Part shown: in pieces, positions 24,063 through 41,887 of the stretch
How positions within the stretch are numbered: position 1 is the stretch's first letter
Layout of the letters: each line of letters begins with the position of its first letter
NCBI GenBank assembly: GCA_946480925.1
Contig: CAMLLU010000001.1
Location: 124,001 to 188,000, forward strand
Length of the DNA stretch: 64,000 nucleotides
Direction: 5' to 3'
Origin: an uncultured Rivibacter sp.
GTDB lineage: Bacteria > Pseudomonadota > Gammaproteobacteria > Burkholderiales > Burkholderiaceae
Translations under genes and position numbers: made by a program
Notes under the pieces: generated by a model
Told to the model about the DNA's origin: nothing
Seen by the model: only the letters and a program-made list of their open reading frames with translations
The model's database searches: none

Positions 24063-26879
24063 TTACGCCGCTTGCAGCTGGCTACGGATCAGCTTCTTGA
24101 GCTCCGGCACACAGGAGCCGCAGTTGGTGCCGCACTTGAGCTCGCCTTGCAGCTGCGCGAGCTGTGCGTCGGCCGGGCCGTTGCAGTGCGAGAGCGTCGC
24201 CATGATCTCGGGCTCGGCCACGTTGAAGCAGGTGCACACCTGCCGACCCTTGGCCTGCACCGCCACGGGGGGCTTGGCGCCGGGCACCAGCAGCAGGCGA
24301 CCATAGGCCTGGGCAGGCACTTCGTCCTGCAGCAGCGTCTTGATCCACGCTTCGGCGCTGGTGTCGCCGGCCAGAACGAAGCCCTCGAGCCGTGCATCGC
24401 CGCCGGGCTGCCGCACGAGCCGCATCGCACGGCGCTGGCCGCGGCGCTTGTCGGCATAACGCAGCACCTCGGTGCCGCGCAGGCCCAGCATGCCTTCGAT
24501 CTGGGTGACCAGCTCGTCCGGTGCCGCCTCGTAGGCAGCGGCGCGGAACAGCACGCCCACCAGGCCGTGCTCGTGCGGCTCGCGGCCGAAGGGCACGCAA
24601 CTGGCGTAGGCGAACGAAGGCATCAGCGCGCGCAGTTGCTGCTGGGCGAGCAGGGCCTTGTCTTGCGGCAGCCAGGCCATGGCCAGCAGGCGCCACGGCA
24701 GCTCGGCCTTCAGCAGCTTCACGGCGCTGTGCTTGAGCTCGGGCTGCTTGGACTTGGGGCAGAAGGCCGGTGTGGTGATCGCATTGATGCCCGCCAGGCG
24801 CTCGCCGGTGGACGACACGCCGGAGACGAACTCCTCGCCCCAGTGCATGGCGACGAAGGCCTGCGTGAGCGCCACCGCCTCGTTGGCCACCACGGGCAGC
24901 ACGACGGAGCCGCGGCGCGAGGTGACGTGTAGCAGGTCGCCATTGGCCCAGCCGCGGCGCGACAGTTCCTGCGGATGCAGTTCGATGCTGGGCTCCGGCA
25001 CGTGGCCGAACAGGCGCCCGAGCACACCGGTGCGGCTCATGCCGTGCCACTGGTCGCGCAGCCGGCCGGTGGTGAGCGAGAAGGGGTAGCGCGCGTCGCG
25101 CGGTTCGGCAACGGGCTTGTATTTCATCGCCACGAAGCGTGCGCGGCCGTCCGGCGTGGGGAACACGCCATCTTCATAGAGCCGCACCTTGCCTTGGCTG
25201 GCGCCTTCCGGCATGGGCCATTGCTGCGGGCCGGCGGATTCGAGCAGCGCGTAGCTCAGGCCGGTGATGTCGAGGTCGCGACCGCGGGTGGATTCGCGGT
25301 GTTCGTTCCACACCGATTCGGCGGTGTCGTACGGAAAGAGCGTGGCGAGCCCCTGCGGCACGCGTTCGGGCAGGCGCTGTTCGAGCCGGCGGGCGAAGTC
25401 CACCACCATGGCCCAGTCGTGGCGGGTCGCGCCCGGCGCGGCCACGGCGGGGCGCACGCGGCTGATGCGGCGCTCGCTGTTGGTGACCGTGCCTTCCTTT
25501 TCGCCCCAGGTGGTGGCGGGCAGCAGCAGATCGGCGTAGGCGCAGGTGGCCGTGGTGGCGAAGGCCTCCTGCACCACCACGAACTCGGCGGTCTGCAGCG
25601 CGCGGCGCACCGTGGCCTGGTCGGGCAGCGACTGGGCCGGGTTGGTGCAGGCGATCCACAGCGCCTTGATCTCGCCCCGCGCGACGGCCTCGAACATCTC
25701 CACCGCCGTCTTGCCCGGCGTGGCCGGCACGTCCGGCACTCCCCACAGCGCGGCCACTTCGGCGCGGTGCTCGGGGTCGGCGAGGTCGCGGTGGGCGCTC
25801 AGCAGGTTGGCCAGGCCGCCCACTTCGCGCCCGCCCATCGCATTGGGCTGGCCGGTGAGCGAAAACGGCCCGGCGCCCGGCTTGCCGATCTGGCCGGTGG
25901 CCAGGTGCAGGTTGATGAGCGCAGCGTTCTTGTCGGTGCCCGAGGAGCTCTGGTTCAGGCCCTGGCAGTAGAGCGACAGCGTGGCCGGCGACTCGCCGAA
26001 CCACTTGGCGGCCTGCACGAGGTCGGCCTCGTTGATGCCGCACAGCTTGGCCACTTCCTTGGGCGTGAAGTCACGCACGATGGCCTTCAGTTCGTCGAAG
26101 CCGGTGGTGTGGGCGCGGATGTAGGCGTTGTCGGTGAGGCCTTCCCACATCAGCAGGTGCAGCATGCCGTGGAAGAGGGCCACGTCGGTGCCGGGCTGGA
26201 TGGGCAGGTACAGGTCGGCGACTTCCGCGGTTTCGGTGCGGCGCGGGTCGGCGACGATGAGTTTCATCGCCGGGTTGTCGCGCCGCGCGTCTTCGATGCG
26301 GCGGAACAGGATGGGGTGCGCGTAGGCCGTGTTGGAGCCGACGATGAAGAGCGTCTGCGCGAACTTGAAGTCGTCGTAACAGGCCGGCGGTGCGTCGGCG
26401 CCCAGCGTGGCCTTGTAGCCGGCCACCGCGCTGCTCATGCACAGGCGCGAGTTGGTGTCGATGTTGTTGGTGCCCAGCAGGCCCTTGGCCAGCTTGTTGA
26501 AGACGTAGTAGTCCTCGGTGAGCAGCTGGCCCGAGATGTAGAAGCCCACCGCATCGGGGCCGTGCCTGCGCACGATGTCGGCAAAGCGGTCGGCCGCTTC
26601 GTCGAGCGCGGCGTTCCAGCTCACCACTTGCGGTGTGTCGCCGCGCGATGCACGGCGCTGCGGTTGCAGCAGGCGCGTCTGCAACGTGACCGGTGCCGTG
26701 GCGGTGAGGTGCAGCGTGCTGCCCTTGCTGCACAAGCGGCCGAAGTTGGCAGGGTGCAACGGATCACCGCGCACGCCGGTGATCTGCTCGCCCTCGCTCT
26801 CGATGATCACTCCGCAGCCCACACCGCAGTACGGGCAGGTGGAGCGTGTCTCCTTCACCTTCGCTGCCCCTGTGTTCAC
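24063..26879 (-). CDS. nasA: Assimilatory nitrate reductase catalytic subunit
   Basis: This 938-residue molybdenum enzyme reduces nitrate to nitrite in the cytoplasm for nitrogen assimilation. The N-terminal [4Fe-4S] motif is CPYCGVGCGV with a further Cys in RLCSKG, followed by molybdopterin-guanine-dinucleotide domains (about 60-700) with GTNNIDTNSRLCMSSAVAGY carrying the likely Mo-ligand Cys. A C-terminal bacterioferritin-associated-ferredoxin-like [2Fe-2S] domain (VCTCFNVAEPEIM ... CGTNCGSCVPELKK) is present, as in NasA of Klebsiella. The start is GTG 26879, overlapping the nirD stop as GTGA. Electrons probably reach it from a flavoprotein or ferredoxin not encoded next to it. Confidence 0.96.
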   Translation of the reverse strand: MNTGAAKVKETRSTCPYCGVGCGVIIESEGEQITGVRGDPLHPANFGRLCSKGSTLHLTATAPVTLQTRLLQPQRRASRGDTPQVVSWNAALDEAADRFADIVRRHGPDAVGFYISGQLLTEDYYVFNKLAKGLLGTNNIDTNSRLCMSSAVAGYKATLGADAPPACYDDFKFAQTLFIVGSNTAYAHPILFRRIEDARRDNPAMKLIVADPRRTETAEVADLYLPIQPGTDVALFHGMLHLLMWEGLTDNAYIRAHTTGFDELKAIVRDFTPKEVAKLCGINEADLVQAAKWFGESPATLSLYCQGLNQSSSGTDKNAALINLHLATGQIGKPGAGPFSLTGQPNAMGGREVGGLANLLSAHRDLADPEHRAEVAALWGVPDVPATPGKTAVEMFEAVARGEIKALWIACTNPAQSLPDQATVRRALQTAEFVVVQEAFATTATCAYADLLLPATTWGEKEGTVTNSERRISRVRPAVAAPGATRHDWAMVVDFARRLEQRLPERVPQGLATLFPYDTAESVWNEHRESTRGRDLDITGLSYALLESAGPQQWPMPEGASQGKVRLYEDGVFPTPDGRARFVAMKYKPVAEPRDARYPFSLTTGRLRDQWHGMSRTGVLGRLFGHVPEPSIELHPQELSRRGWANGDLLHVTSRRGSVVLPVVANEAVALTQAFVAMHWGEEFVSGVSSTGERLAGINAITTPAFCPKSKQPELKHSAVKLLKAELPWRLLAMAWLPQDKALLAQQQLRALMPSFAYASCVPFGREPHEHGLVGVLFRAAAYEAAPDELVTQIEGMLGLRGTEVLRYADKRRGQRRAMRLVRQPGGDARLEGFVLAGDTSAEAWIKTLLQDEVPAQAYGRLLLVPGAKPPVAVQAKGRQVCTCFNVAEPEIMATLSHCNGPADAQLAQLQGELKCGTNCGSCVPELKKLIRSQLQAA

Positions 26880-27232
26880 GCCGCGGCCTTGACCTCGTCG
26901 AGGGCCAGCGAATTGAGCTCGTCCACGTCGAGCGAAACCACGCCGCCCTCGACCTTGACGCTGAACTTGGTGGTACAGCCTTCGTCAGGCGACTTCGCGC
27001 AGCCGTCGTTCAGGCCGATGGTCCAGTTGTGCAGCGGGCAGGCCACGCTCTCGCCGAACACGATGCCCTGGCTCAGCGGGCCGCCCTTGTGCGGGCAGCG
27101 GTCGAGCAGCGCGAACACCTTGTCTTCGGCGTTGCGGAACACGGCCACGTCGCAGCCGGTAGGGCGTGCCACGCGGCGCGCTCCCAGCACGGGAATGTCT
27201 TCGACGCGGCAGATGGCTTTCCAATCACTCAT
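26876..27232 (-). CDS. nirD: Nitrite reductase (NADH) small subunit
   Basis: This 118-residue Rieske-fold protein pairs with NirB. It contains CPHKGGPLSQG and CPLHNWTIGL, spaced as the CxH and CxxH ligands of a Rieske [2Fe-2S] cluster. The well-known E. coli NirD has lost these ligands, so this protein may hold a real cluster. The start MSDWKAICRVEDIPV is typical for the family. It lies between the sensor-like gene (40 bases upstream) and nasA, overlapping the latter by four bases, in one operon that makes ammonia from nitrate. Confidence 0.94.
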   Translation of the reverse strand: MSDWKAICRVEDIPVLGARRVARPTGCDVAVFRNAEDKVFALLDRCPHKGGPLSQGIVFGESVACPLHNWTIGLNDGCAKSPDEGCTTKFSVKVEGGVVSLDVDELNSLALDEVKAAA

Positions 27233-27271: not shown

Positions 27272-28099
27272 TCAAGCGGCCGAGAGGCGCGCATACAAGC
27301 CGGTGACCTGATCCATCACCTGCAGGATGTTTTCGCTGCTGGCGAACACCTGCTCGGCGCGTTGCGCGGTCTTGGCACCTTCGGCGCCGCGCTCCAACGC
27401 GTTCTGGAAGAACACCCACTGCTGCTGCGCGAGGTCGAGCTGCTGGTGGATGGCCGGCGTGGCCTGGGGTGCGTCGTGCAGCGTCTTCAGGCCGGCGATG
27501 AACTCGTCGCGGGCCTTGCCGAGTTCCTTGGCGGCGTCGGGCACTTCGGCCTTCCAGCTCTGCACCAGGTAGAACTTGGCCATGCGCTGCGACAGCATGC
27601 GCTGGCGGCCGGCCAGGTTGACCAGGTGGCCGACCGGCTTGCCCGAGTGCTTTTCGAGCTGCACCGTGCCCTGGTGGGCCAGCTGCAGCACCCGGCCGTC
27701 GAGCGCGATCAATTGCTGCGCCGCCGGCTTGTTGGGCGTGGCCCCCACGAGCGCCGTCTTGTATTCGCCCCACACCGCTTCGAGCGCGACGTAGGTAGCG
27801 CGGATTTCGCCGGTGGGCGCATAGGCCTTCAGCTCGACGAACTGCCGGTCGAACAGCGCCATCGAGTCAGCCAGGATGCGCTGGGCGCGCGACACGTCCA
27901 CCTCCTGCCCGATGGCGAGCCAGGCCTTGGCCATGCGCTGCGACAGCATGCGTTGGCGGCCGGCCTTGTTGATGGCGTCGTTGATGTCGCCGACCTGCGC
28001 GCGTGCACGCTGCCCGGCCAATGCGAACGAGGTGCCGGCCAGCGCCGCCAGCACGCCGCGGCGGCGCCACAGGGGCGAAGAGGGTACTGCCTGCGTCAT
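27272..28099 (-). CDS. Exported protein with two NarX-like (PilJ-N) sensor motifs
   Basis: This 275-residue protein has an N-terminal export signal with a twin-arginine look (RRRGVLAALAGTSFALAG, cleavage near ARA-Q). After it come two similar all-helical halves, each opened by nearly the same motif: AINKAGRQRMLSQRMAK (residues 42-58) and LVNLAGRQRMLSQRMAK (159-175). The motif is that of the type IV pili methyl-accepting-transducer N-terminal domain (PF13675), which also covers the P-box of nitrate sensors NarX and NarQ. No membrane anchor, kinase or signalling output follows, so it is probably a free periplasmic protein. It starts two bases after the nirB stop, inside the nitrate operon. I infer it binds nitrate or nitrite; the partner is unknown. 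Confidence 0.8.
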   Translation of the reverse strand: MTQAVPSSPLWRRRGVLAALAGTSFALAGQRARAQVGDINDAINKAGRQRMLSQRMAKAWLAIGQEVDVSRAQRILADSMALFDRQFVELKAYAPTGEIRATYVALEAVWGEYKTALVGATPNKPAAQQLIALDGRVLQLAHQGTVQLEKHSGKPVGHLVNLAGRQRMLSQRMAKFYLVQSWKAEVPDAAKELGKARDEFIAGLKTLHDAPQATPAIHQQLDLAQQQWVFFQNALERGAEGAKTAQRAEQVFASSENILQVMDQVTGLYARLSAA

Positions 28100-28101
28100 G
28101 G

Positions 28102-30552
28102 TCACACGGCGGCCACGGCGTCGAACTGGCGCGTGTCCACGGCCGCCTTGTCGAACTCGAACCAGGGGTCGGGCTCGCCGTCGAGCGAGAACTGCAGCCG
28201 CTCCCACAGCGCCTTGCGGTTGGCTGCGTCGTCGAGCACTTTCTTCTTCACGTAGTCGAGGCCCACGCGGCTCACGTAGTGGCAGGTGCGCTCGAGGTAC
28301 CAGCCCTCTTCGCGATAGAGCTGCAAGAAGGCGCCGCTGTACTCGAGCACTTCCTCGGGCGTCTTCACCTTCACGAAGAAGTGCGCCACTTCGGTCTTGA
28401 TGCCGCCGTTGCCGGCCACGTAGAGCTCCCAGCCGGAGTCGACGCCGATCACGCCCACGTCCTTGATGCCGGACTCTGCGCAGTTGCGCGGGCAGCCGCT
28501 CACCGCGAGCTTGACCTTGTGCGGCGCGTACATGCGCCACAGCTGGCGTTCGAGGTCCTTGCCCATCTGCGTGCTGTCTTGCGTGCCGAAGCGGCACCAT
28601 TCGCTGCCCACGCAGGTCTTCACCGTGCGCAGCGCCTTGGCATAGGCATGGCCCGAGGGCATGCCGATGTCCTTCCAGACGTTGACGAGGTCTTCCTTCT
28701 TCACGCCCAGCAGGTCGATGCGCTGGCCGCCGGTGACCTTGACGGTGGGGATCTTGTACTTGTCCACCGCGTCGGCGATGCGGCGCAGTTCATCGGCCGT
28801 GGTTTCGCCGCCCCACATGCGCGGGATCACCGAGTAGGTGCCGTCCTTCTGGATGTTGGCGTGGCTGCGCTCGTTGATGAAGCGCGACTGCGGATCGTCC
28901 TTCGCTTCCTTCGGCCAGGTGCTGATGAGGTAGTAGTTGACGGCCGGGCGGCACGACGAGCAACCGTTGGGTGTGCGCCAGTTGAGGTGCTTGTAGACGC
29001 TGTCGATGGTGAGCAGCTTGGAGCCGTCGGGCAGCGGCGTGCGGATGGCCTGGCGCACCTCTTCGTGGCTGTGGTCGGTGCAGCCGCACATGGCCTTCTT
29101 CTTGGGCGTGGACGAGTAGTCGCCGCCGGCGGTGAACATCAGCAGCTGCTCCACCAGGCCCGTGCACGAGCCGCAGCTCGCGCTGGCCTTGGTGTGCTTG
29201 CGCACCTCTTCGAGCGTGAAGAGCCCCTTTTCCTTGATGGCCTTGCAGACCGCACCCTTGGTGACGCCGTTGCAGCCGCACACCTCGTCGCTGTCGGCCA
29301 TGGCCGCGGCCTTGTTGTGGCCTTCGTGGCCTGTGTCACCGATGTTCGACTCGCCGAACATCAGCTTGTCGCGGATGTCTGCGACGGAACGGCCTTCGCG
29401 CACGAGCTTGAAGTACCAGGAGCCATCCACGGTGTCGCCGTAGAGGCAGGCGCCCACGAGCTTGTCGTCCTTGATGACGAGCTTCTTGTAGACCCCGCCG
29501 AAGGGGTCGCTCATCACGATCTCCTCGGTGCCTTCGCCGCCCATGAAGTCGCCGGCCGAGAACAGGTCGATGCCGGTGACCTTGAGCTTGGTGCTCACCT
29601 GCGAGCCGGTGTAGCGGCCGATGCCGAACTCGGCCAGGTGCGTGGCGCACACCTTGCCCTGTTCAAACAGCGGCGCCACCAGGCCGTAGGCGATGCCGCG
29701 GTGCGCTGCGCATTCACCCACCGAGTAGATGCGCGGGTCGGTCACGGTCTGCATCGTGTCGGTGACCACGATGCCGCGGTTGCAATGCAGGCCGATTTTT
29801 TCGGCGAGCTCCGTGTTGGGGCGGATGCCCGCGGCCATCACCACCAGGTCGGCCGGCACTTCGGTGCCGTCCTTGAACTGCACGGCCATCACACGGCCGT
29901 CCTTGTCGCCGATGAGTGCCTGGGTCTGCGCGCCGATCATGAACTTGAGGCCGCGGTCTTCGAGCGACTTGCGCAGCAGGCCGCCGGCCACGTCGTCGAG
30001 CTGGCGCTCCATGAGCCACGGCATGATGTGCACCACCGTGGTCTGCATGCCGCGCAGCATCAGGCCGTTGGCGGCTTCCAGGCCCAGCAGGCCGCCGCCG
30101 ATGACCACCGCGTGCTTGTACTTGGCGGCCGCCTCGATCATCGTGTTGGTGTCGGCGATGTCGCGGTAGGCGATCACGCCGTTCAAGTCCTTGCCAGGCA
30201 CCGGCAGGATGAACGGGTTGGAGCCGGTGGCCAGCAGCAGGCGGTCGTATTCGGCCTCGGTGCCGTCCTCGGCGCGCACGATGCGGCGCTTGCGGTCCAC
30301 GCTCACCACCTTCTTGCCCAGGTGCAGCGTGATGTTGTTCTCTTCGTACCAGCTCACCGGGTTGAGGATGATCTCGTCGAGCGTCTGCTCGCCGGCGAGC
30401 ACCGGGCTCAGCAGGATGCGGTTGTAGTTGGGGTGCGGCTCGGCGCCGAACACCGTGATGTCGTACAGATCGGGAGCGATCTTCAACAGCTCTTCGAGCG
30501 TGCGCACGCCGGCCATGCCGTTGCCCACCATCACCAACTTCATCTTCTTCAT
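28102..30552 (-). CDS. nirB: Assimilatory nitrite reductase (NADH) large subunit
   Basis: This 816-residue enzyme reduces nitrite to ammonia in six electron steps with NADH. The order of domains is FAD and NAD binding (1-300, with VMVGNGMAGVRTLEELLKIA and VVIGGGLLGLEAANGL), two BFD-like [2Fe-2S] regions with paired Cys (CGCNGVTKGAVCKAI; CGSCTGLVEQLL), and the siroheme/[4Fe-4S] half. The latter has CVGSEWCRFGTQDS and AVSGCPRNCAESGIKDVGV. ATG 30552 follows AGGAG by eight bases; an internal ATG at 30543 is less likely. It is the first gene of an operon with the sensor-like gene, nirD and nasA, and has a sigma-54-type promoter about 50 bases upstream. Confidence 0.96.
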   Translation of the reverse strand: MKKMKLVMVGNGMAGVRTLEELLKIAPDLYDITVFGAEPHPNYNRILLSPVLAGEQTLDEIILNPVSWYEENNITLHLGKKVVSVDRKRRIVRAEDGTEAEYDRLLLATGSNPFILPVPGKDLNGVIAYRDIADTNTMIEAAAKYKHAVVIGGGLLGLEAANGLMLRGMQTTVVHIMPWLMERQLDDVAGGLLRKSLEDRGLKFMIGAQTQALIGDKDGRVMAVQFKDGTEVPADLVVMAAGIRPNTELAEKIGLHCNRGIVVTDTMQTVTDPRIYSVGECAAHRGIAYGLVAPLFEQGKVCATHLAEFGIGRYTGSQVSTKLKVTGIDLFSAGDFMGGEGTEEIVMSDPFGGVYKKLVIKDDKLVGACLYGDTVDGSWYFKLVREGRSVADIRDKLMFGESNIGDTGHEGHNKAAAMADSDEVCGCNGVTKGAVCKAIKEKGLFTLEEVRKHTKASASCGSCTGLVEQLLMFTAGGDYSSTPKKKAMCGCTDHSHEEVRQAIRTPLPDGSKLLTIDSVYKHLNWRTPNGCSSCRPAVNYYLISTWPKEAKDDPQSRFINERSHANIQKDGTYSVIPRMWGGETTADELRRIADAVDKYKIPTVKVTGGQRIDLLGVKKEDLVNVWKDIGMPSGHAYAKALRTVKTCVGSEWCRFGTQDSTQMGKDLERQLWRMYAPHKVKLAVSGCPRNCAESGIKDVGVIGVDSGWELYVAGNGGIKTEVAHFFVKVKTPEEVLEYSGAFLQLYREEGWYLERTCHYVSRVGLDYVKKKVLDDAANRKALWERLQFSLDGEPDPWFEFDKAAVDTRQFDAVAAV

Positions 30553-30602: not shown

Positions 30603-30619
30603 AGCAAGCGTGGTGCCAA
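30603..30619 (-). promoter_or_regulatory. Sigma-54 promoter of the nirB operon
   Basis: Minus strand TTGGCAC, five bases, then TTGCT: an excellent match to the -24/-12 consensus. Transcription would start near 30592, leaving a leader of about 40 bases before nirB. That leader shows no pair of six-base-loop hairpins. Sigma-54 control points to NtrC-type nitrogen regulation. Confidence 0.75.
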
Positions 30620-30625
30620 AAATTA

Positions 30626-30651
30626 GGGAATGCACCAGACCGGGATGCACC
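30626..30651. promoter_or_regulatory. Direct repeat GGGA(A)TGCACC between divergent promoters
   Basis: GGGAATGCACC (30626-30636) and GGGATGCACC (30642-30651) lie in the same direction between the nirB and kinase promoters. TGCACC is the half-site of NtrC operators, but here the halves are direct, not inverted, and close to both promoters. The binding protein is unclear. Confidence 0.45.
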
Positions 30652-30656
30652 GTTTC

Positions 30657-30673
30657 TGGGATCGTTTCTTGCT
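30657..30673 (+). promoter_or_regulatory. Possible sigma-54 promoter of the phosphatase-kinase gene
   Basis: GGATCG (30659-30664), four bases, then TTGC (30669-30672) has correct -24/-12 spacing and most consensus bases. The start would be near 30684, just before a dyad. Weaker than the nirB promoter. Confidence 0.45.
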
Positions 30674-30687
30674 TCGTGGTGCGCTCG

Positions 30688-30712
30688 CTCAACGCTGATG
30701 CACAGCATTGAG
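30688..30712. promoter_or_regulatory. Ten-base dyad at the start of the phosphatase-kinase transcript
   Basis: CTCAACGCTG (30688-30697) and CAGCATTGAG (30703-30712) flank a five-base spacer. They are inverse copies except one position, which would be a G-U pair in minus-strand RNA. It lies between the predicted start site and ATG 30732, so it could be an operator or an RNA hairpin. Confidence 0.45.
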
Positions 30713-30731
30713 GACGCAGAACAAGGGAATC

Positions 30732-32495
30732 ATGAGTTTCGACGTCGACATTGGCTGGTTCAGCGCGCGTGGACCGCGGGAGGACAACGAGGACTTCGCC
30801 GCTGCGGTGCGCCCAGCGCCCCACGATGAGGCGCGCGGGCTGATCGCCGCGATCGCCGATGGCGTGTCGATGGGCGGCGGCGGCAAGATGGCCTCGCAGA
30901 CCACGGTGATGAGTCTGGTGCAGGACTACTTTGGTGCACCCGAAACCTGGGACACGAGCGTGGTGCTCGACCGCCTCATCGGCGCGCAGAACGCCTGGCT
31001 CACCGACCACAACCGGCGCCGCCAGCAGCTGGGCGCCGCGCAGGGCGGCGGCAGCGCGATGACGACGCTGACCGCGCTGGTGCTGCGCGGCCACAGCTAT
31101 ACGCTGGCCCACGTGGGCGACACGCGTGCATGGCTGCTGCGCGGCGATGCTGCCGACGCGTGCACCCAGCTGAGCCAGGACCACAGCTTCGACCACCCCG
31201 ACATGCGCAGCCGCCTCACGCGCGCCATCGGGCTCGACGACCACGTGCGGGTCGACTACCAGCAGGGCGAGCTGCACAGCGGCGACGTCTTCATGCTCAC
31301 CAGCGACGGCGTGCACGGCGCGCTCAAGCGCCGCGTGCTGGCGCAGCATGCCCTGGCGGCTCGCGAGGGCTCCGCACAGGCGGCCGCCGAGGCGCTGGTG
31401 AATGCCGCGCTCGGGGCCGGCAGCCGGGACAACAGCAGCGCGCTCGTCATCCACGTGCGCGGTCTCGCGCCGCTGCGCCTTGACGACGCGCTGGTGCACG
31501 CGCGCCAACTGCCGGTGCCGCCGCGCCTGAAGGTGGGCGACACGATCGACCACTACACGGTGACCGCGCTCATTGCCGATACCGGCGTACACCGGCTCTA
31601 CCAGGTGCGCGACCTCGACACCCGCGAGCTGCTCGCGATGAAGACCCTGCACGAGAGCCGTGCCAGCGACCCCGAGGAGCGAGCCATGCTCGCGCACGAG
31701 GCCTGGCTGGGCCTGCGGCTCACGCAGCGCTACGGCGAACACGAGTCGAGCGGCTTCGTGCGCGTGCGCGAGCCCAGGGAGCCGGGCGCCTTCTACACGC
31801 TGTTCGACTGGCATGCCGGCCACACACTGGAGCAATTGCTTGCGCAGGGCCGCCGCTTCGAGGTGCGCGAGGTCCTTGCCGGTGCATTGGCCGCGGCCCG
31901 TGCGCTGGGCCGGCTGCACCGCCAGGGCGTGATCCACCGCGACATCAAGCCTGCCAACCTGCACCTGGGCGACGACGGCCAATGGCGAGTGCTCGACCTG
32001 GGCGTGGCCATCTCGGGCCGCGAGCCCGCGGCGCAACGCGAGCTGCATGCCGGCACGCCCAGCTACATGAACCCCGAGCAGTGGTCGGCCGATGAGGGTG
32101 CCAACACCGGTGCCACGGCGCAGAGCGACCTCTACGCGCTGGGCGCTACGCTCTACCAGTGGCTGACCGGCAAGCTGCCCTACGGCGAGATCGAGCCCTA
32201 CCAGCTGGCGCGTTTCCGCCAGGACCCGAGGGCTCCGTCGCGCCTGCGGCCCGAAGTGCCGATCTGGCTCGACCACGTGGTGCTCAAGGCGGTGGCTCGT
32301 GACCCCAGGCAGCGCTTCGAGACGGCCGAGGAGATGGTGCTCGCGCTGGAGCGCGGCGCTTCGCGCCCGCTGGCCGCACCCAGTGCCACGCCGCTGGCAG
32401 TGCGCGACCCGCGCGCGCTGTGGCAGATCGCACTGGCGATCTCGATGCTCTTCAATGTGCTGCTGATTGTTTGGCTGCTTTTCCTGCCCCGTTGA
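30732..32495 (+). CDS. Fused PP2C phosphatase-Ser/Thr kinase, membrane-anchored
   Basis: This 587-residue protein joins opposite activities. Residues 1-250 form a PP2C-type phosphatase with metal-binding motifs PREDNEDFAA, AIADGVSMGGGGKMASQ, VGDTRAW, TSDGVHG and SRDNSSALVI. Residues 270-530 form a Hanks-type kinase with the ATP-site Lys in LLAMKTL, the catalytic loop HRDIKPAN (Asp404), DLG in place of DFG, and GTPSYMNPEQW. A single membrane helix (about 558-582) ends the protein, leaving both domains in the cytoplasm. Genes of this kind are found beside nirBD/narK in other proteobacteria, such as Pseudomonas. Substrates are unknown. A TTG at 30708 is a less likely start than ATG 30732. It is divergent from nirB. 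Confidence 0.93.
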   Translation: MSFDVDIGWFSARGPREDNEDFAAAVRPAPHDEARGLIAAIADGVSMGGGGKMASQTTVMSLVQDYFGAPETWDTSVVLDRLIGAQNAWLTDHNRRRQQLGAAQGGGSAMTTLTALVLRGHSYTLAHVGDTRAWLLRGDAADACTQLSQDHSFDHPDMRSRLTRAIGLDDHVRVDYQQGELHSGDVFMLTSDGVHGALKRRVLAQHALAAREGSAQAAAEALVNAALGAGSRDNSSALVIHVRGLAPLRLDDALVHARQLPVPPRLKVGDTIDHYTVTALIADTGVHRLYQVRDLDTRELLAMKTLHESRASDPEERAMLAHEAWLGLRLTQRYGEHESSGFVRVREPREPGAFYTLFDWHAGHTLEQLLAQGRRFEVREVLAGALAAARALGRLHRQGVIHRDIKPANLHLGDDGQWRVLDLGVAISGREPAAQRELHAGTPSYMNPEQWSADEGANTGATAQSDLYALGATLYQWLTGKLPYGEIEPYQLARFRQDPRAPSRLRPEVPIWLDHVVLKAVARDPRQRFETAEEMVLALERGASRPLAAPSATPLAVRDPRALWQIALAISMLFNVLLIVWLLFLPR

Positions 32496-32646: not shown

Positions 32647-33912
32647 TCAGGCGCCGCGTTGCAGGGTGCGTGCGGAGGCGTCCTGGGGTGCGCCATGTGG
32701 CACGGTGCGAGCACGGCCACCCTTCTCGGCCCAGGTGCGCGTCCAGCGGATCTGCATTACCCGCATCATCAGCAGCACGGCCACGGCCAGTACTGCGAAG
32801 AACACGAAGCCCCAGGCGTAGCTGCCGGTGTATTGCTTCGACAGGCCCATCGCGTTGGGCACGAGGCCGCCGCCCAGCGCGCCGACCTCACCGATCATGG
32901 AGCCGGCCACCGCCGTGGTGAGCGGCCAGCGCAGCGGCACCAGCTGGAAGAGGGCACCGTTGCCCGCGCCCAGCGCCGAGAAGCACACCATGAAGAGCAG
33001 CGTGGTGGCGACGAGCGAGGCGGAGGCGAAGCCGCACAGCACCAGCGTCACGGCCACGATCAGCAGCACCGCGGTGAGCGTGTTGATGCCGCCCAGCCGG
33101 TCGGAGATCCAGCCGCCGAACACGCGCACGGCCGCGCCCATGAAGGCGGCCAGCATGGTGAGTTGGCCCGCCTGCACCTTGCTGACGCCGAACTGGTCGT
33201 AGTAGTAGGTGGGCAGGAAGGTGGTGAGGCCGATGAAGCCGCCGAAGGTCACGCCGTAGATGAGGCTGAAGGCCCAGCCGTCCTTTTCGAACAGGCAGGC
33301 GATGTGTTCGCGGAAGCTGGCGTGTGCGTCGAGGTCGGGCGGCTCCTTGGCGAACACGATCATCACCAGCATGGGCAGCAGGATGGCCGCGGCCGCGAAG
33401 CCGTAGACCGTCTGCCAGCCGAAGGCCTGTGCCAGCGGGGGCGCCACCAGCACCGAGACCGCCGTGCCTACGTTGCCCGCGCCCACCAGACCCATGGCCA
33501 GGCCCTTGTGGCGCGGCGGGAACCAGCCCGAGCCCAGCGACAGCGCCACGCCAAAGCTCGCCCCCGCAATGCCCAGCAGCACGCCCATGGCCAGCAGGTC
33601 GTTGAAGCTCTTGACCATGAAGAAGCCGTACAGCATGGCCACGGCGATCAGCGTCATCTCGACCAGCGTGGCGTTCTTGCGGCCGATGTATTGCGCGAGC
33701 ACGCCCAGCGGGAAGCGCATCAGCGCCCCGGCGATGATGGGGATCGACAGCATCAGCCCCTTCTGCGCGGGCGTGAGCTGGTAGGCCTCGGTGATGAACG
33801 GCGCCATGGCACCGTTGAGCACCCAGATGCAGCACGAGAACGCGAAGTACAGGAACGCCGAGAACAGGGTCGGCGCGTGGCCTGAGCGGAGAAAACTTCT
33901 GAAGCCGGACAT
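32647..33912 (-). CDS. narK: Nitrate/nitrite transporter, NarK/NasA-type MFS
   Basis: This 421-residue MFS transporter has 12 membrane segments. It carries the two Gly-rich nitrate signature motifs, GLVGAGNVGTAVSVL (about residues 120-134) and ALGAGNGALFQLVP (about 315-328). FPLGVLAQYIGRKNATLVEM fits the loop after helix 2. It imports nitrate for the nearby reductases. The start at ATG 33912 (MSGFRSFLRSGHAPTLF) matches relatives; ATG 33927, adding MASPH, is possible. The gene has its own sigma-54-like promoter and an unusually long leader of about 130 bases with stacked hairpins, described separately. It is divergent from the ANTAR regulator gene and convergent with the kinase gene. Confidence 0.93.
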   Translation of the reverse strand: MSGFRSFLRSGHAPTLFSAFLYFAFSCCIWVLNGAMAPFITEAYQLTPAQKGLMLSIPIIAGALMRFPLGVLAQYIGRKNATLVEMTLIAVAMLYGFFMVKSFNDLLAMGVLLGIAGASFGVALSLGSGWFPPRHKGLAMGLVGAGNVGTAVSVLVAPPLAQAFGWQTVYGFAAAAILLPMLVMIVFAKEPPDLDAHASFREHIACLFEKDGWAFSLIYGVTFGGFIGLTTFLPTYYYDQFGVSKVQAGQLTMLAAFMGAAVRVFGGWISDRLGGINTLTAVLLIVAVTLVLCGFASASLVATTLLFMVCFSALGAGNGALFQLVPLRWPLTTAVAGSMIGEVGALGGGLVPNAMGLSKQYTGSYAWGFVFFAVLAVAVLLMMRVMQIRWTRTWAEKGGRARTVPHGAPQDASARTLQRGA

Positions 33913-33929
33913 GTGTGGGCTCGCCATGG

Positions 33930-34043
33930 GGTTTGCCCCGCACCAGGAGGTGGCGGGACTTATCTGCACATGGCTGCGCACGACGGTGTGCGCATGACCG
34001 GCGGTGCTGTTGCACGGTCCGGGTGCAACGTCACACCCGAGTG
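33930..34043 (-). ncRNA. Structured narK leader, candidate ANTAR target RNA
   Basis: On the minus strand the leader begins with a hairpin CGGGTG/CACCCG (34039-34034 with 34025-34020). A smaller GACCG/CGGTC structure follows, then a perfect 7-bp hairpin TGCGCAC/GTGCGCA (33994-33975) with six-base loop ACCGTC. Loops of six with A at position 1 and G at position 4 are what ANTAR proteins bind, usually in pairs; the first hairpin has a six-base loop (GACGTT) only if a U-G pair closes it. A GC-rich hairpin around CCCGC/GCGGG near 33957-33936 follows but has no T-run. The ANTAR regulator is encoded next door. Confidence 0.6.
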
Positions 34044-34054
34044 CCTTGTGCATC

Positions 34055-34070
34055 GCAACAACCATGCCAG
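34055..34070 (-). promoter_or_regulatory. Sigma-54-like promoter of narK
   Basis: Minus strand CTGGCATG, then TTGC with correct spacing (GG and GC 12 apart). The predicted start near 34043 is exactly before the first leader hairpin. One consensus base differs (T for C after TGGCA). Confidence 0.65.
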
Positions 34071-34162: not shown

Positions 34163-35437
34163 GTGACTTCCGTTCTTGTCGCCCAGGACCTCGCCCCCGG
34201 CTCCCCCGTGTTGGCCGACGACCTCGCGGCCGCGGGATTTCACGTCCTTGGTGCCACCGGTTGCGACAACCTGGTGCGCGACACGCTGCGAAGCAACCCC
34301 GACGTGCTGGTGTGCTGGCAGCCCCGGCCGGCAGAGACTTTTTTCACGGCGCTCAGCACGCTGCAGGCCAACGCGGCGCTGCCGGTGGTGGTGTTCACCA
34401 GCGACCCCGAGGTCGAAGCCATGGAGAGGGCGCTGGCCGCGGGGGTGCAGTGCTGGGAAGTGCAGGGCTACCTGCCGCAGCGCCTGCGCGCGGTGGTGCA
34501 GCTGGCGCAGGCGCGCTTCAAGCACGAGCGTGCGCAGCGCGAGGCGATGGCCGAACTCAGCAGCCGCTTCGAAGAGCGCAAGCTCGTCGACCGCGCCAAG
34601 GGCATCCTGATGCGCTCGCAGCAGCTGTCCGAGGAAGAGGCCTTTCGCCTGCTGCGCAGCGCCTCGATGCACGGCAACCAGCGTGTGGGCCAGGTCTCGC
34701 AGCAGATCATCGACATGGCGCGTTATGCCGATGCGATCAACCGCGCCGGCCAGTTGCGCATGCTCTCGCAGCGGCTGGTGAAGCTCTACGCACTGGGCTG
34801 CGCAGGCACCGATGCGGCGGCCACGCGGGCGCTGCTGGTGCAGTCCGTCGAGCGTGTGGACGACAACCTGGCGGTGCTGGCCAAGCTGCTGTCGCGCCCG
34901 ACCTTCGGCGACCTGCTCGATGCCGCGATGGCGCCGTGGACCGAACTGCGTGCCAAGCTGTCGGCGCCTGCCGACGTGGCCGGTCTGCAGGCGCTGGACG
35001 CCTTGGCCGAGCGCTTGTTGACGCAGGCCGAGCGGCTGACCACCGCACTCGAATCGTGCGGCCTGGCCAGCACCTTGCACGTGATCAACGTCTCAGGCCG
35101 CCAGCGCATGCTGTCGCAGCGGCTGGCCAAGCAGGCGCTGCTGTCGCATCTGCTGCAGGGCGATGCCGCCCGGGGCGCCGAGGCCGAGGTCAAGCACATC
35201 GTGAGCGAGTTCGACCAGGCGCTGCAGTACCTGGGCGGCGTGCCGCTGTCCACGCGCGACATCCGCGAAGGCCTGGCCACGGCGGCACGCACCTGGAGCG
35301 CCATGCTGGCGGCCGTGAAGCGCGTGCATGAAGCCGACGGCCGCCTGGCGCTGGCCGGCAGCAGCGAAGCGCTGCTCGAGCTGTTCGATCGGCTCACCGG
35401 CCAGTACGAGCACGGCATGCAGGGCTTGATCGGCTGA
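34163..35437 (+). CDS. ANTAR-domain regulator fused to two NarX-like sensor motifs
   Basis: This 424-residue cytoplasmic protein has three parts. Residues 1-120 resemble a response-regulator receiver, as in NasT, but the phosphorylated Asp is missing (NPDVLVCWQPRPA has Cys-Trp there). Residues 128-184 are an ANTAR RNA-binding domain (RKLVDRAKGILMRSQQLSEE). The rest is helical with two copies of the PilJ/NarX-type motif: NRAGQLRMLSQRLVK (193-207) and NVSGRQRMLSQRLAK (309-323). ANTAR proteins such as NasR and NasT let transcription pass a leader terminator when nitrate is present. Here the sensor parts follow the ANTAR domain, unlike NasR. The start is probably GTG 34163; no family sequence precedes it. 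It is divergent from narK, whose leader holds a candidate target. Confidence 0.88.
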   Translation: MTSVLVAQDLAPGSPVLADDLAAAGFHVLGATGCDNLVRDTLRSNPDVLVCWQPRPAETFFTALSTLQANAALPVVVFTSDPEVEAMERALAAGVQCWEVQGYLPQRLRAVVQLAQARFKHERAQREAMAELSSRFEERKLVDRAKGILMRSQQLSEEEAFRLLRSASMHGNQRVGQVSQQIIDMARYADAINRAGQLRMLSQRLVKLYALGCAGTDAAATRALLVQSVERVDDNLAVLAKLLSRPTFGDLLDAAMAPWTELRAKLSAPADVAGLQALDALAERLLTQAERLTTALESCGLASTLHVINVSGRQRMLSQRLAKQALLSHLLQGDAARGAEAEVKHIVSEFDQALQYLGGVPLSTRDIREGLATAARTWSAMLAAVKRVHEADGRLALAGSSEALLELFDRLTGQYEHGMQGLIG

Positions 35438-35577
35438 CGGGCGGCCAGGCTGCACGCCGCATCGCGGCCTGTAGTGCCGCCGGGCGCGCCTTGGGGCTAG
35501 GAAAAACCCGCAGCAATGCCCCATATAGGCCCGGGCAATTGGACTCGCCCCGTTGCACAGGAGTAGTGTCCTTTCCG

Positions 35578-35596
35578 CATCCCGCGTCACGGGATG
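35578..35596 (+). promoter_or_regulatory. Hairpin in the rubrerythrin leader
   Basis: CATCCCG (35578-35584) and CGGGATG (35590-35596) form a 7-bp stem with a five-base loop, 36 bases before the rubrerythrin start. The remaining gap from 35438 contains no gene that I can see. Confidence 0.35.
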
Positions 35597-35631
35597 GGCT
35601 GTTCCCTGTTCCCCCACGTCAGGAGATCGTT

Positions 35632-36054
35632 ATGCAGCTCAAGGGCTCGAAGACCGAACAGAACCTGAAGGACGCATTTGCGGGTGAATCGCAGGCCAAC
35701 CGGCGCTACCTCTACTTCGCCAACAAGGCCGACGTCGAAGGGCAGAACGATGTGGCGGCGCTGTTCCGCTCCACCGCCGAAGGTGAAACCGGCCACGCGC
35801 ACGGCCACCTGGAATTCCTGGAGCACGGCTCGGGTGACCCGGCCACCGGCCTGCCCATCGGCGCCACGCGTGACAACCTGAGGGCCGCCGTGGCCGGCGA
35901 AACGCACGAGTACACCGACATGTACCCGGGCATGGCTCGTCAGGCTCGCGAAGAAGGCTTCGAGGAGATCGCCGACTGGTTCGAGACGCTGGCCAAGGCC
36001 GAGCGTTCGCACGCCAACCGCTACCAGAAGGCGCTGGACGCGCTGGTGGACTAG
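35632..36054 (+). CDS. Rubrerythrin family protein (no rubredoxin domain)
   Basis: This 140-residue di-iron four-helix-bundle protein has the iron ligands in AFAGESQANRRY, EGETGHAHGHLEFLE, AVAGETHEYTDMYPGM and LAKAERSHANRYQKAL, the two ExxH-type pairs plus extra Glu residues. The C-terminal rubredoxin domain with CxxC pairs found in classic rubrerythrin is absent, as in sulerythrin-like proteins. Such proteins reduce hydrogen peroxide and need an outside electron donor. A strong AGGAG site lies nine bases before ATG 35632. It is followed by a repeat and then by an Fe-S protein and DUF3501, a grouping seen in other proteobacteria. Confidence 0.93.
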   Translation: MQLKGSKTEQNLKDAFAGESQANRRYLYFANKADVEGQNDVAALFRSTAEGETGHAHGHLEFLEHGSGDPATGLPIGATRDNLRAAVAGETHEYTDMYPGMARQAREEGFEEIADWFETLAKAERSHANRYQKALDALVD

Positions 36055-36178
36055 GTCCACCCCCGTAGCAGCTGACGCTGCTCCCCTCAAGGGGGCGACG
36101 CTGGCGGACCGGCGGAGCCGGATCCGCGGCGTCTGCTCTGATCGCCGCAGGCCGCCTTGGCGGCCTCGGCTCCTGGTT
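36055..36178 (+). repeat. Long gene-end repeat, copy 2
   Basis: It begins directly after the rubrerythrin stop with GTCCACCCCCGTAGC, aligned to 32496. The first hairpin is AGCAGC/GCTGCT here against AGCGCC/GGCGCT in the other copy, and the last is GGCCGCC/GGCGGCC against GTCGC/GCGAC, so paired bases have changed together. CCCCTCAAGGGGGCG is identical. It fills the gap up to the ribosome binding site of the next gene. Confidence 0.8.
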
Positions 36179-36192
36179 GGCGGAGGCTTCTG

Positions 36193-37557
36193 GTGAGCCA
36201 TCGTGAGGGAAATCTTGAGGCGCCCACCCGGCACGCGGTGGACTGGAAGCATGCCGACTACTACGACGAGGAGAAGTGCTTCCACGAGCTGGAGCGCATC
36301 TTCGACATCTGCCACGGCTGCAGGCGCTGCGTGAGTCTGTGCCATTCGTTCCCGACGTTGTTCGACCTGGTGGACGAAGGCAAGACCGGCGAGGTCGATG
36401 GCGTGGCCCGCACGGACTACTGGAAGGTGGTGGACCAGTGCTACCTGTGCGACCTGTGCTACATGACCAAGTGCCCCTACGTGCCGCCGCACCAATGGAA
36501 CCTGGACTTCCCGCACGCCATGCTGCGGGCCAAGGCCATCAAATTCAGGAAGGGCGAGGTCAAGGCGGGTGACCGGTTCCTGGCGTCGACCGACGTGCAT
36601 GGCCAGTTCGCCGGCATTCCGGTGGTGGTGCAGGTGGTCAACGCCGTCAACAAGACCAGCTTCGCCCGCAACGCGATGGAGTCGCAGCTGGGCGTGGACA
36701 AGAAGGCCTGGATGCCCGAGCTGGCCAGCAGGCGCTTTCGCTGGAGCGCGAAGAAGAGCGGCAGCGAAGAGGTAAAGGAAGGCGAGCGCACACCCGGCAA
36801 GGTGGCCATCTTTTCCACCTGCTACGTCAACTACAACGAGCCCGGCATCGGCTTCGACCTGCTGAAGATCCTGGAGCACAACGCCATTCCCTACGTCATC
36901 CTCGAAAAGGAGAAGTGCTGCGGCATGCCAAAGTTCGAACTGGGTGATCTCGAGTCGGTTGAGAAGCACAAGAACGCCAACATCCCGGTGCTGGCGAAAT
37001 ACGCGAAGGACGGTTACGCCATCCTGTCGGCCGTGCCCTCGTGCACGCTGATGTTCAAGCAGGAGCTGCCGCTGCTGTTTCCTCAGGAAGAGGACGTGCA
37101 GCTCGTGAAGGAGGCGATGTGGGACCCGTTCGAATACCTCGTGGCGCGCCACAAGGACGGGCTGCTGAAGACAGACTTTTCGCAAGACCTCGGCCAGGTG
37201 AGCTACCACATCCCTTGCCACGGCCGCGTGCAGAACATCGGCCGCAAGACTGAAGAGATGCTCAAGCTTGTCGGCCAGCACGTCACGCTGACACTCAACA
37301 CGGTGGAGCGCTGCTCCGGCCATGCCGGTACCTACGGCGTGAAAAAGCCGTATCACGACATCGCCATGAAGATCGGCAAGCCGGTGTTCAAGGCCATGGG
37401 GAAGACGAACGCCGAAGGCAAGGGGCCGGACGTCATCAGCTCCGACTGTGCGCTGGCCGGGCACCACATCGCGCAGGGCATGGCCGAGAACGGTCTGCCC
37501 GCCGCCGCTTTGCAACACCCGCTGACGCTCGTGCGTCGCGCCTACGGATTGACCTGA
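36193..37557 (+). CDS. Heterodisulfide-reductase-like (HdrD/GlpC-type) Fe-S protein
   Basis: This 454-residue protein has two [4Fe-4S] ferredoxin motifs, CHGCRRCVSLCHSFP (about residues 40-54) and CYLCDLCYMTKCPYVPP (about 84-100). Two CCG-type domains follow: CCGMPKFELGD near 246 and the region HIPCHGRVQNIG to ERCSGHAGTYG near 340-380. Such domains hold unusual [4Fe-4S] clusters in heterodisulfide reductases and GlpC-like electron carriers. The start is GTG 36193 with GGAGG seven bases before; an open frame runs back into the repeat but has no support. It lies between rubrerythrin and DUF3501 and could pass electrons to rubrerythrin; this is inference. DUF3501 starts 12 bases after it. Confidence 0.9.
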   Translation: MSHREGNLEAPTRHAVDWKHADYYDEEKCFHELERIFDICHGCRRCVSLCHSFPTLFDLVDEGKTGEVDGVARTDYWKVVDQCYLCDLCYMTKCPYVPPHQWNLDFPHAMLRAKAIKFRKGEVKAGDRFLASTDVHGQFAGIPVVVQVVNAVNKTSFARNAMESQLGVDKKAWMPELASRRFRWSAKKSGSEEVKEGERTPGKVAIFSTCYVNYNEPGIGFDLLKILEHNAIPYVILEKEKCCGMPKFELGDLESVEKHKNANIPVLAKYAKDGYAILSAVPSCTLMFKQELPLLFPQEEDVQLVKEAMWDPFEYLVARHKDGLLKTDFSQDLGQVSYHIPCHGRVQNIGRKTEEMLKLVGQHVTLTLNTVERCSGHAGTYGVKKPYHDIAMKIGKPVFKAMGKTNAEGKGPDVISSDCALAGHHIAQGMAENGLPAAALQHPLTLVRRAYGLT

Positions 37558-37569
37558 GGGCACCTCCAG

Positions 37570-38148
37570 ATGGCAATCACCCGCGACAGCCTGCTGACCC
37601 TCGAAGCCTATGCCCGCGCGCGCAAGGACATGAAGGCGAGCGTGATCCCGCATCGGCGCCTGCGCAGCGTGCACCTGGGCGAGCACATGACGGTGCAGTT
37701 CGAGGACGAGACCACCATCCGCTACCAGATCCAGGAGATGCTGCGGGTCGAGAAGATCTTCGAGGAAGAGGGTATCCAGCAGGAGGTAGACGCCTACAAC
37801 CCGCTGGTGCCCGACGGAAGCAACTGGAAGGCGACGCTGCTGCTCGAGTACCCCGACGTGCACGAACGCAGGCGCGAGCTGGGCCGCCTGATCGGCGTGG
37901 AAGACCGCATGTTCGTCGAGGTGGAGGGGCGGTCGCGGGTCTATGCGATCGCCGACGAAGATCTCGACCGCGAGAACGCCGAGAAAACCTCGTCCGTGCA
38001 CTTCCTGCGCTTCGAATTCCCTCCGGCACTGGCGGCGGCCATTCGCGCCGGTGCGGCCGTCAAGTTGGGGTGCGACCACAGCAACTATCCGGTGCACGTG
38101 AGCATCGCGCCCGACACGCTGGCCAGCCTGGCCGGCGACCTGCGCTAG
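37570..38148 (+). CDS. DUF3501 family protein
   Basis: This 192-residue soluble protein matches DUF3501, a family of unknown function that travels with rubrerythrin and the Fe-S protein just upstream. The N-terminal ITRDSLLTLEAYARARKDMK and HLGEHMTVQFEDETTIRYQI are typical. No Cys cluster, signal peptide or membrane segment is visible except a single Cys (KLGCDHSNYPVH) near the end. The constant neighbourhood suggests a part in peroxide detoxification or in assembling the redox partners. Translation is likely coupled to the upstream gene, which ends 12 bases before. Confidence 0.9.
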   Translation: MAITRDSLLTLEAYARARKDMKASVIPHRRLRSVHLGEHMTVQFEDETTIRYQIQEMLRVEKIFEEEGIQQEVDAYNPLVPDGSNWKATLLLEYPDVHERRRELGRLIGVEDRMFVEVEGRSRVYAIADEDLDRENAEKTSSVHFLRFEFPPALAAAIRAGAAVKLGCDHSNYPVHVSIAPDTLASLAGDLR

Positions 38149-40680: not shown

Positions 40681-40858
40681 GTTGTTCTTGTGTGCTCGCG
40701 GTGCGTGCAGGGAAGGTGTCCGCCGCGAGCCGAGAGCCGCATTCCTGAACCCAGGGGATTCAGGTGGGCGAGGTCAGAAAGGCTTCGGGTTCATCTGACG
40801 CGAGACGATCGCACCAGCCAGTCGATGTTCCAGGCCCTTGCTCAATGAGCATCGGTTC
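40681..40858 (-). ncRNA. ssrS: 6S RNA
   Basis: It lies downstream of zapA on the same strand, the classic place for ssrS. The minus strand reads CACCTGAATCCCCTGGGTTC, then AGG and AATGCGGC, close to the E. coli 6S segment around CCUUGAACCAAGGGUUCAAG. Inner pairs are visible: GGTGCGA with TCGCCCACC, GTCAGA with TCTGAC, CCTGAA with TTCAGG, and GCAAGGG with CCCTGC near the ends. A TATATT -10 box at 40869-40864 predicts a start near 40857. The ends are approximate. 6S RNA binds the sigma-70 polymerase and restrains it in stationary phase. Confidence 0.7.
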
Positions 40859-40863
40859 AAGGA

Positions 40864-40869
40864 AATATA
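40864..40869 (-). promoter_or_regulatory. -10 box of the 6S RNA gene
   Basis: Minus strand TATATT, about seven bases before the predicted 6S start. No convincing -35 is visible at the usual distance. The space up to zapA (40966) has no further gene. Confidence 0.45.
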
Positions 40870-40965
40870 AAACTCCCGCGAACGCGACGGACGAAACCAT
40901 TCTAGAGCGTGAGTGTGAATGGCAAGGGCCCTACCCGTGCGGCAAAAGGGCCAAGTTCGTCACGT

Positions 40966-41527: not shown

Positions 41528-41586
41528 CGGTTCCTCGGCCTCGCCTACAACCTCGCGGCATTGTATGGGGCGCTCCAGCCCACCTT

Positions 41587-41592
41587 TACAAT
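41587..41592 (+). promoter_or_regulatory. -10 box before the cobalamin riboswitch
   Basis: TACAAT, about 7 bases before the likely riboswitch start. TTGTAT at 41561-41566 could be a -35 but the spacer of 20 is long; it overlaps the divergent zapB-like promoter. Confidence 0.45.
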
Positions 41593-41598
41593 TTGCCG

Positions 41599-41805
41599 CG
41601 TTGGTGCTCGTGTCGGTGTTCACACCGGCGCGGTTAAACGGGAAGCAGGGAGGTCGTGCCGTCGCCACGACACCACCCAACCTGCGCTGCCCCCGCAACG
41701 GTAAGCGGACGGGATTCGTTCCCCACCCTGCGCACAGCCACTGGAGGCTCGTCTTCCGGGAAGGTCGCATGGGCCGTTCCGCCAGCCCGGATACCGGCCA
41801 ACGGG
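41599..41805 (+). ncRNA. Cobalamin riboswitch
   Basis: It carries the standard elements in order: AAACGGGAAGCAGGG near 41636, GCTGCCCCCGCAACGGTAAG (41687-41706), the B12 box GCCACTGGAGG near 41737, CCGGGAAGG near 41757, and GCCCGGATACCGGCC near 41784. The riboswitch binds adenosylcobalamin or a related form and would shut down btuB and probably the whole downstream B12 operon, most likely by blocking translation, since no T-rich terminator is visible before ATG 41888. The 360-base gap around it has no other gene. Confidence 0.95.
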
Positions 41806-41887
41806 GGGTGCGGCACGTTCGCGTGCGGTGCCATGTCGCATGGGCCTGCGGGGAAGCTGGCACGTGCACCGCGTTCGTCCATTCAAC

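Follow-up and report, generated by a model that had tools for sequence, protein, structure and literature searches.

NasR from Klebsiella oxytoca is an NIT-ANTAR antiterminator in which the sensor comes first and the ANTAR domain is C-terminal, and NasT, itself without a sensor, is held by NasS (PMC3795266). EutV, a response regulator (PMC7496416), and the mycobacterial protein Rv1626 are receiver-ANTAR regulators. Nitrate in the periplasm is sensed by McpN and NarX/NarQ, which act as dimers in membrane proteins. An RNA target of ANTAR proteins has been described by Ramesh et al. as a pair of short hairpins, each closed by a hexaloop whose first base is A and whose fourth is G (A1 and G4); the second hairpin overlaps an intrinsic terminator (PMC3369931). 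According to the abstract of PMC7496416, it was unclear before the work on NasR how different sensors drive the ANTAR RNA-binding domain. Here we describe a gene from an uncultured Rivibacter sp., located at 34163..35437 on the plus strand of a 64,000-nucleotide stretch (the window), whose 424-residue product, an open frame with a GTG start, joins a receiver-like domain, an ANTAR domain and tandem PilJ domains in one chain. We assign a probability of roughly 0.8 to the reading that it is a NasT-like receiver-ANTAR protein that acquired a C-terminal PilJ pair and controls nitrate assimilation as a one-component cytoplasmic regulator responding to nitrate or nitrite. This reading rests on the computed domain order, the conservation of Gly-x-x-Arg in the sensor motifs, the location in a nitrate gene cluster and a conserved hairpin, P1 or in most close relatives the pair P1-P2, immediately after the sigma54-like promoter that precedes the divergent narK or nirB. 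The design appears to be uncharacterised and, judging from sequence, appears to do the job of NasR and NasS-NasT.

The ANTAR domain (PF03861) covers residues 131-183 (34553..34711, plus strand; E-value 3.5e-19, 68.8 bits against a Pfam cut-off of 27.3), and residues R139, K140, K146 and R165 within it are kept in at least 33 of 34 fusion proteins. PilJ (PF13675) matches in two stretches (protein E-value 2.6e-21, 76.3 bits against a cut-off of 26.6, best stretch 306-401). The predicted structure likewise folds residues 185-424 into two four-helix bundles, at 185-298 (34715..35056, plus strand) and 302-423 (35066..35431, plus strand). The Pfam receiver profile found no match on the regulator at E-values up to 1. 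The label receiver-like for about residues 1-120 (34163..34522, plus strand) therefore rests on alignments with Rv1626 (residues 4-184, E-value 3.7e-17) and EutV (residues 18-183) and on the predicted structure of the N-terminal part, which matches EutV and receivers. Alignments and fold predictions used 54 of 121 proteins in a first run and 31 of them plus the window piece in a second. In the Rv1626 alignment the column of the phosphoacceptor aspartate, the mark of two-component response regulators, is occupied by Trp52; among the 34 fusion proteins the column holds Asp in three and Trp in 15. Hydropathy averaged over 19 residues peaks at 1.5, and there is no apparent membrane span. An earlier note on this DNA had proposed just this order, a receiver-like domain without the phosphorylated Asp, then ANTAR, then a cytoplasmic PilJ-type sensor with a four-helix-bundle fold, and, small details aside, this description is borne out.

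Set beside the described systems, the regulator differs from NasR in having two PilJ domains and no NIT domain (PF08376 is not among its Pfam matches at E-values up to 1), in placing the sensor after ANTAR and in starting with a receiver-like domain. Residues 119-184 align with the ANTAR part of NasR. With NasT-like proteins the receiver-ANTAR part shares about 30-40% identity, the operon is of the same kind and the same RNA element occurs in genomes with NasT-like proteins, but the regulator has 240 further residues that form the two PilJ bundles, and the fusion proteins mostly lack the phosphoacceptor Asp. The missing phosphoacceptor and the attached sensor also set the fusion apart from EutV and Rv1626. 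As in McpN and NarX/NarQ, each PilJ bundle carries the Gly-x-x-Arg nitrate motif; unlike in these proteins, there are two bundles per chain, no apparent membrane span and an attached RNA-binding domain.

The gene divergent from the regulator and its predicted target encodes a NarK-type nitrate/nitrite transporter (32647..33927, minus strand; named from domain and family searches). Between the two, on the strand of narK, a pattern match to a sigma54-like promoter, TGGCATGGTTGTTGC (34055..34069), is followed by hairpin P1, TCGGGTGT-GACGTT-GCACCCGG (34019..34040), by a linker helix GACC...GGTC with weaker support (33996..34019; 74.4% of cells paired) and by hairpin P2, TGCGCAC-ACCGTC-GTGCGCA (33975..33994), both hairpins being seen in covariation and predicted fold. 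In the minimum-energy fold of this leader (z -3.07 against shuffles), P1, P2 and the linker helix each form a hairpin of their own. The P2 loop has both A1 and G4; the P1 loop has G4 but G at position 1. P1-P2 resembles the dual-hairpin element of Ramesh et al. (PMC3369931) but has a longer structured linker and a purine in place of the strict A at loop position 1. Rfam holds no family at the window leader, the only hit being a sub-threshold match to a CRISPR repeat (E-value 0.098).

For comparison we used 34 fusion loci (the window, L001 and L067-L098), of which 33 supplied leaders; L086, at a contig end, has neither narK nor nirB upstream on the other strand and was left out. Of the 33 leaders, 25 have narK as divergent neighbour and eight have nirB; at L079 another, transporter-like open reading frame (ORF) intervenes. 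On the strand of the divergent gene, inspection of pattern matches by eye yielded a sigma54-like GG-N10-GC element in all 33. In 32 of them, L076 being the exception, a P1 with hexaloop G4 and a stem of at least 5 bp lies 18-23 nt behind it; dinucleotide shuffles yielded a mean of 2.8 and a maximum of 7 in 200 runs. When the best hairpin per leader was chosen without requiring G4, position 4 was still G in 30/33, and position 1 was A in 19, G in 12 and C in 2. P2, whose loop usually lies 44-45 nt downstream of the P1 loop, was recovered by strict pairing in 13 of the 33 leaders (shuffles: mean 3.8, maximum 9) and by eye, as a shorter or mismatched stem, in seven more. The P1-P2 alignment comprises these 20 leaders; the other 13 (L085, L087-L098), which show no visible P2, are not part of it. 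P1 is paired in 90.8% of cells with changes on both sides in six of eight pairs and 31 double-change cells against 8.1 in shuffles, and P2, in the 20 leaders selected for a visible P2, in 91.4% of cells with changes on both sides in five of seven pairs.

What follows P2 bears on how the element may act. The earlier note had spoken of a one-protein nitrate sensor and antiterminator. A nitrate sensor fused to ANTAR in one protein is the best-supported reading, but the term antiterminator is not established for the window because a loose scan (loops of 3-9 nt) found nothing terminator-like in its leader. The same scan gave terminator-like sites in 11/33 leaders, several of them P1 itself or weak, and most leaders of the window's clade show no canonical terminator. 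This would suit a translational leader, in which the stretch behind P2 (AUGUGCCUCC in many relatives) covers ribosome site and start codon by base pairing until ANTAR binding releases them: in the predicted fold of the window, the GCCAUG behind P2 is paired with a CAUGGC containing the start codon of narK, and the best duplex of the post-P2 stretch touches the Shine-Dalgarno and start site in 12 of 26 loci. For only five of the 26 duplexes, however, did no more than 5 of 100 shuffles pair as well or better, and pairings of a locus with its own start site had no clear advantage over those made up across loci (permutation p 0.087, 14 loci; the near-identical partner of L071, L074, was left out, and 11 of the 26 lack the required start site). 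Moreover, inspection by eye shows GC-rich hairpins with T runs behind them in the more distant relatives L094, L096 and L097, but not in the window. Pairing with the start site is suggestive in single loci and not significant overall, and we consider a translational leader of this kind somewhat unlikely. Separately, eight loci (L070, L071, L074, L080, L081, L083, L130 and L132) carry a start codon with Shine-Dalgarno sequence 49-62 nt after P2 that opens a short ORF of 17-49 residues and not narK or nirB, either a leader peptide or a remnant.

The sensor half carries the motifs AGQLRMLSQRLVK at 195-207 and SGRQRMLSQRLAK at 311-323. Two copies of AGxxRMLSQRLxK had been claimed for it; two motifs are indeed present, but the second begins with SG instead of AG. 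Gly196 and Arg199 of the first are found in all 34 fusions, Gly312 of the second in 32/34 and Arg315 in 34/34. The strict N-box for nitrate is [IVL]-[ND]-x-A-G-x-Q-R-M-L-[ST]-Q (PMC6381276), from which the near N-boxes of the window, INRAGQLRMLSQ at 192-203 and INVSGRQRMLSQ at 308-319, deviate by one mismatch each; 11 of the 34 fusions have at least one strict match. McpN aligns with residues 305-411 and is by profile the closest solved relative of residues 306-412 (E-value 8.7e-9), and in structure comparison the sensor fold also resembles that of NasR. Since the N-boxes are not strict, sensors for other ligands score near McpN in that comparison and PilJ domains that do not bind nitrate exist (PMC6381276), the PilJ half of an ANTAR regulator of nitrate genes might instead sense another anion, a protein partner or nothing at all; the near-invariant Gly and Arg of both motifs, the profile match with McpN and the nitrate assimilation genes around the locus make this doubtful. 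PilJ domains are also present in transcriptional regulators, according to Pfam as cited in the McpN paper (PMC6381276). In the predicted structure, helix 175-214 continues directly from the third ANTAR helix. The two arginines that bind nitrate in NasR are R49 and R236; a text search of PMC7496416 gave neither name. An in-order match of the two to both N-boxes was tried and dropped, as the alignment ranges do not fit simply, and we claim no shared Arg-Arg geometry.

A covariance model, R1, was built from the 20 P1-P2 leaders. Within the window it recognizes only the narK leader (86.2 bits, the next match having 23.8 bits). Scanning 33 fusion genomes (G033 of the 34 was left out) gave 20 matches at E-values up to 2.4e-5, of which 19 were training sites and one, in G059, was new; 19 of the 20 adjoin the fusion gene and one lies elsewhere. 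Weaker matches (E-value 0.001-0.1) number 22 besides one of 35.7 bits in G145, and two of them adjoin the fusion (G145:C40 and G014). The 35.7-bit match has none of the searched nitrate-cluster genes nearby and was taken as a false positive. Among 200 genomes of the family, 25 have an R1 match at E-values up to 0.001, of which 20 are fusion genomes, recovered through training sites, the G059 site and the presumed false match in G145, and five (G093, G099, G105, G111 and G131) are not. The RNA of each of these five genomes, like the one at the new site in G059, lies directly upstream of nirB-nasC and is preceded by a sigma54-like element, read by eye. The ANTAR genes of the five are NasT-like in G093, G105 and G131, while G099 and G111 have an NIT-ANTAR gene of the NasR type on the same contig as the RNA, about 7 and 3.5 kb away. 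The simplest reading of these distributions would be one RNA target with three alternative readers: the fusion, NasT-like proteins and NasR-type proteins. That P1-P2 is instead read by NasT or NasR alone, the fusion having another target or an accessory role, would fit these five genomes and the further ANTAR match in 30 of the 33 fusion genomes, but 19 of the 20 strong R1 matches, training sites as they are, adjoin the fusion and the hairpin persists in G061, G135 and G183, in which the fusion is the only ANTAR match found, which makes this the least probable of the alternatives.

For the preferred reading, a one-component nitrate/nitrite-responsive regulator, the following course of events is proposed. 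Nitrate or nitrite would bind between the two PilJ bundles via Arg199 and Arg315, the signal would pass along helix 175-214 to the ANTAR domain, and freed or re-oriented ANTAR domains would bind the hexaloops of P1 and P2, which would let expression of narK proceed, or of nirB-nasC in other relatives; in the clade of the window this may come about either by antitermination or by release of the start site. Nitrogen limitation would act through the sigma54 promoter and nitrate through the RNA. In the window, nitrate control via the RNA would act on uptake, because the element precedes narK and the nirB promoter is without one. For NasR it has been proposed that contacts between sensor and ANTAR hide the RNA-binding residues until nitrate frees them (PMC7496416). 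By analogy, the present protein may plausibly work through a similar release, and its continuous helix would offer a second route. Tentatively, and as possible rather than probable when its parts are taken together, we advance a more far-reaching combination. The family may keep one RNA target and swap its reader between NasS-NasT, NasR and a NasT that captured PilJ; the two N-boxes may make up one intrachain nitrate site; the ligand might act on the RNA-binding helix itself, since the first sensor helix continues the third ANTAR helix; and in the clade of the window the RNA switch might need no intrinsic terminator and act by making the start site of the nitrate transporter gene accessible. 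The analysis names both halves of a regulatory circuit, an uncharacterised but common regulator and a probable RNA target shared among three sensor designs, and a shared target allows a direct test of how different sensors drive one RNA-binding domain. The protein would also be a compact, apparently cytoplasmic nitrate sensor with RNA output.

A protein search with the regulator gave 2447 matches at E-values up to 0.001 among 7999 scored, and all 120 of the matches listed contain both Pfam domains. Where database names are given, they read 'AmiR/NasT family two-component response regulator' or 'type IV pili ... N-terminal domain', so that annotations as response regulators or pilus chemotaxis proteins are corrected by the present analysis. 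Of three loci from a contig scan with the single sequence, only L001 from Methylibium rhizosphaerae (89% identity) is a true fusion. Full-length matches, from receiver-ANTAR through both PilJ parts, were found in 34 of 200 genomes of the family of M. rhizosphaerae, many others of which have a NasT-like protein or a separate tandem-PilJ protein; G118 was not counted, its match covering residues 35-284 only. Wider samples yielded full-length fusions in 2/274 genomes of the class and 3/398 of the phylum, all already in the family sample. As only the best 4-8 candidates per genome were scored, these counts may contain misses. The architecture had been put forward as new among characterised proteins, and no published description of a receiver-ANTAR-PilJ protein was found in the open-licence literature, mostly available in part; it is nevertheless not rare but common in one family. 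In FastTree trees the 34 fusions form one clade both for the N-terminal part (support 0.998, against 37 other receiver-ANTAR sequences) and for the C-terminal part (support 0.757, against only seven others), and a single origin of the fusion is therefore most likely.

The neighbourhood is one of nitrate assimilation in most relatives: window proteins used as queries detected nirB at 31 of the 34 loci and nasC at 30, two of the loci with misses being contigs under 9 kb, and the nasC matches of L080, L088 and L089 reach only 36-40% identity. In the window, narK is followed towards lower coordinates by a PP2C phosphatase-protein kinase fusion (30732..32495, plus strand, longest ORF from 30708; Pfam), which is present in most of the 34 loci, by nirB for the large subunit of nitrite reductase (28102..30552, minus strand; TIGR02374), by a separate tandem-PilJ protein (27272..28099, minus strand; Pfam), by a nirD-like Rieske protein named by eye from sequence (26876..27232, minus strand), and by a NasC-type assimilatory nitrate reductase, a molybdopterin oxidoreductase with BFD-like domain (24063..26879, minus strand). 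The tandem-PilJ protein, encoded between nirB and nirD, has an apparent N-terminal export signal and two strict N-boxes, both seen by eye, and relatives in many genomes of the family. With 32% identity to the sensor half of the regulator, it is possibly kin of the source of that half.

A second pattern match to a sigma54-like promoter, without a P1/P2 element behind it, precedes nirB (30604..30618, minus strand), and the stricter pattern TGGCAY-N5-TTGC occurs in the 64 kb, on both strands, only here and before narK. Upstream of the nirB element, the promoter region 30604-30720 (minus strand) contains repeated GGTGCA words. These may be NtrC sites. L077, L080, L082 and L084 have two sigma54-like elements per intergenic region, one before P1-P2 and one close to nirB. 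Directly downstream of the regulator, genes for rubrerythrin, a cysteine-rich CCG-domain protein and a DUF3501 protein stand in a row (35491-38148, plus strand). Further on, a 6S RNA (40713-40896, minus strand) scores 49.1 bits, slightly over the gathering score of 46.4, and a cobalamin riboswitch (41585-41816, plus strand, 80.2 bits) precedes an ORF that was named by eye as TonB-dependent-receptor-like (41828-43801).
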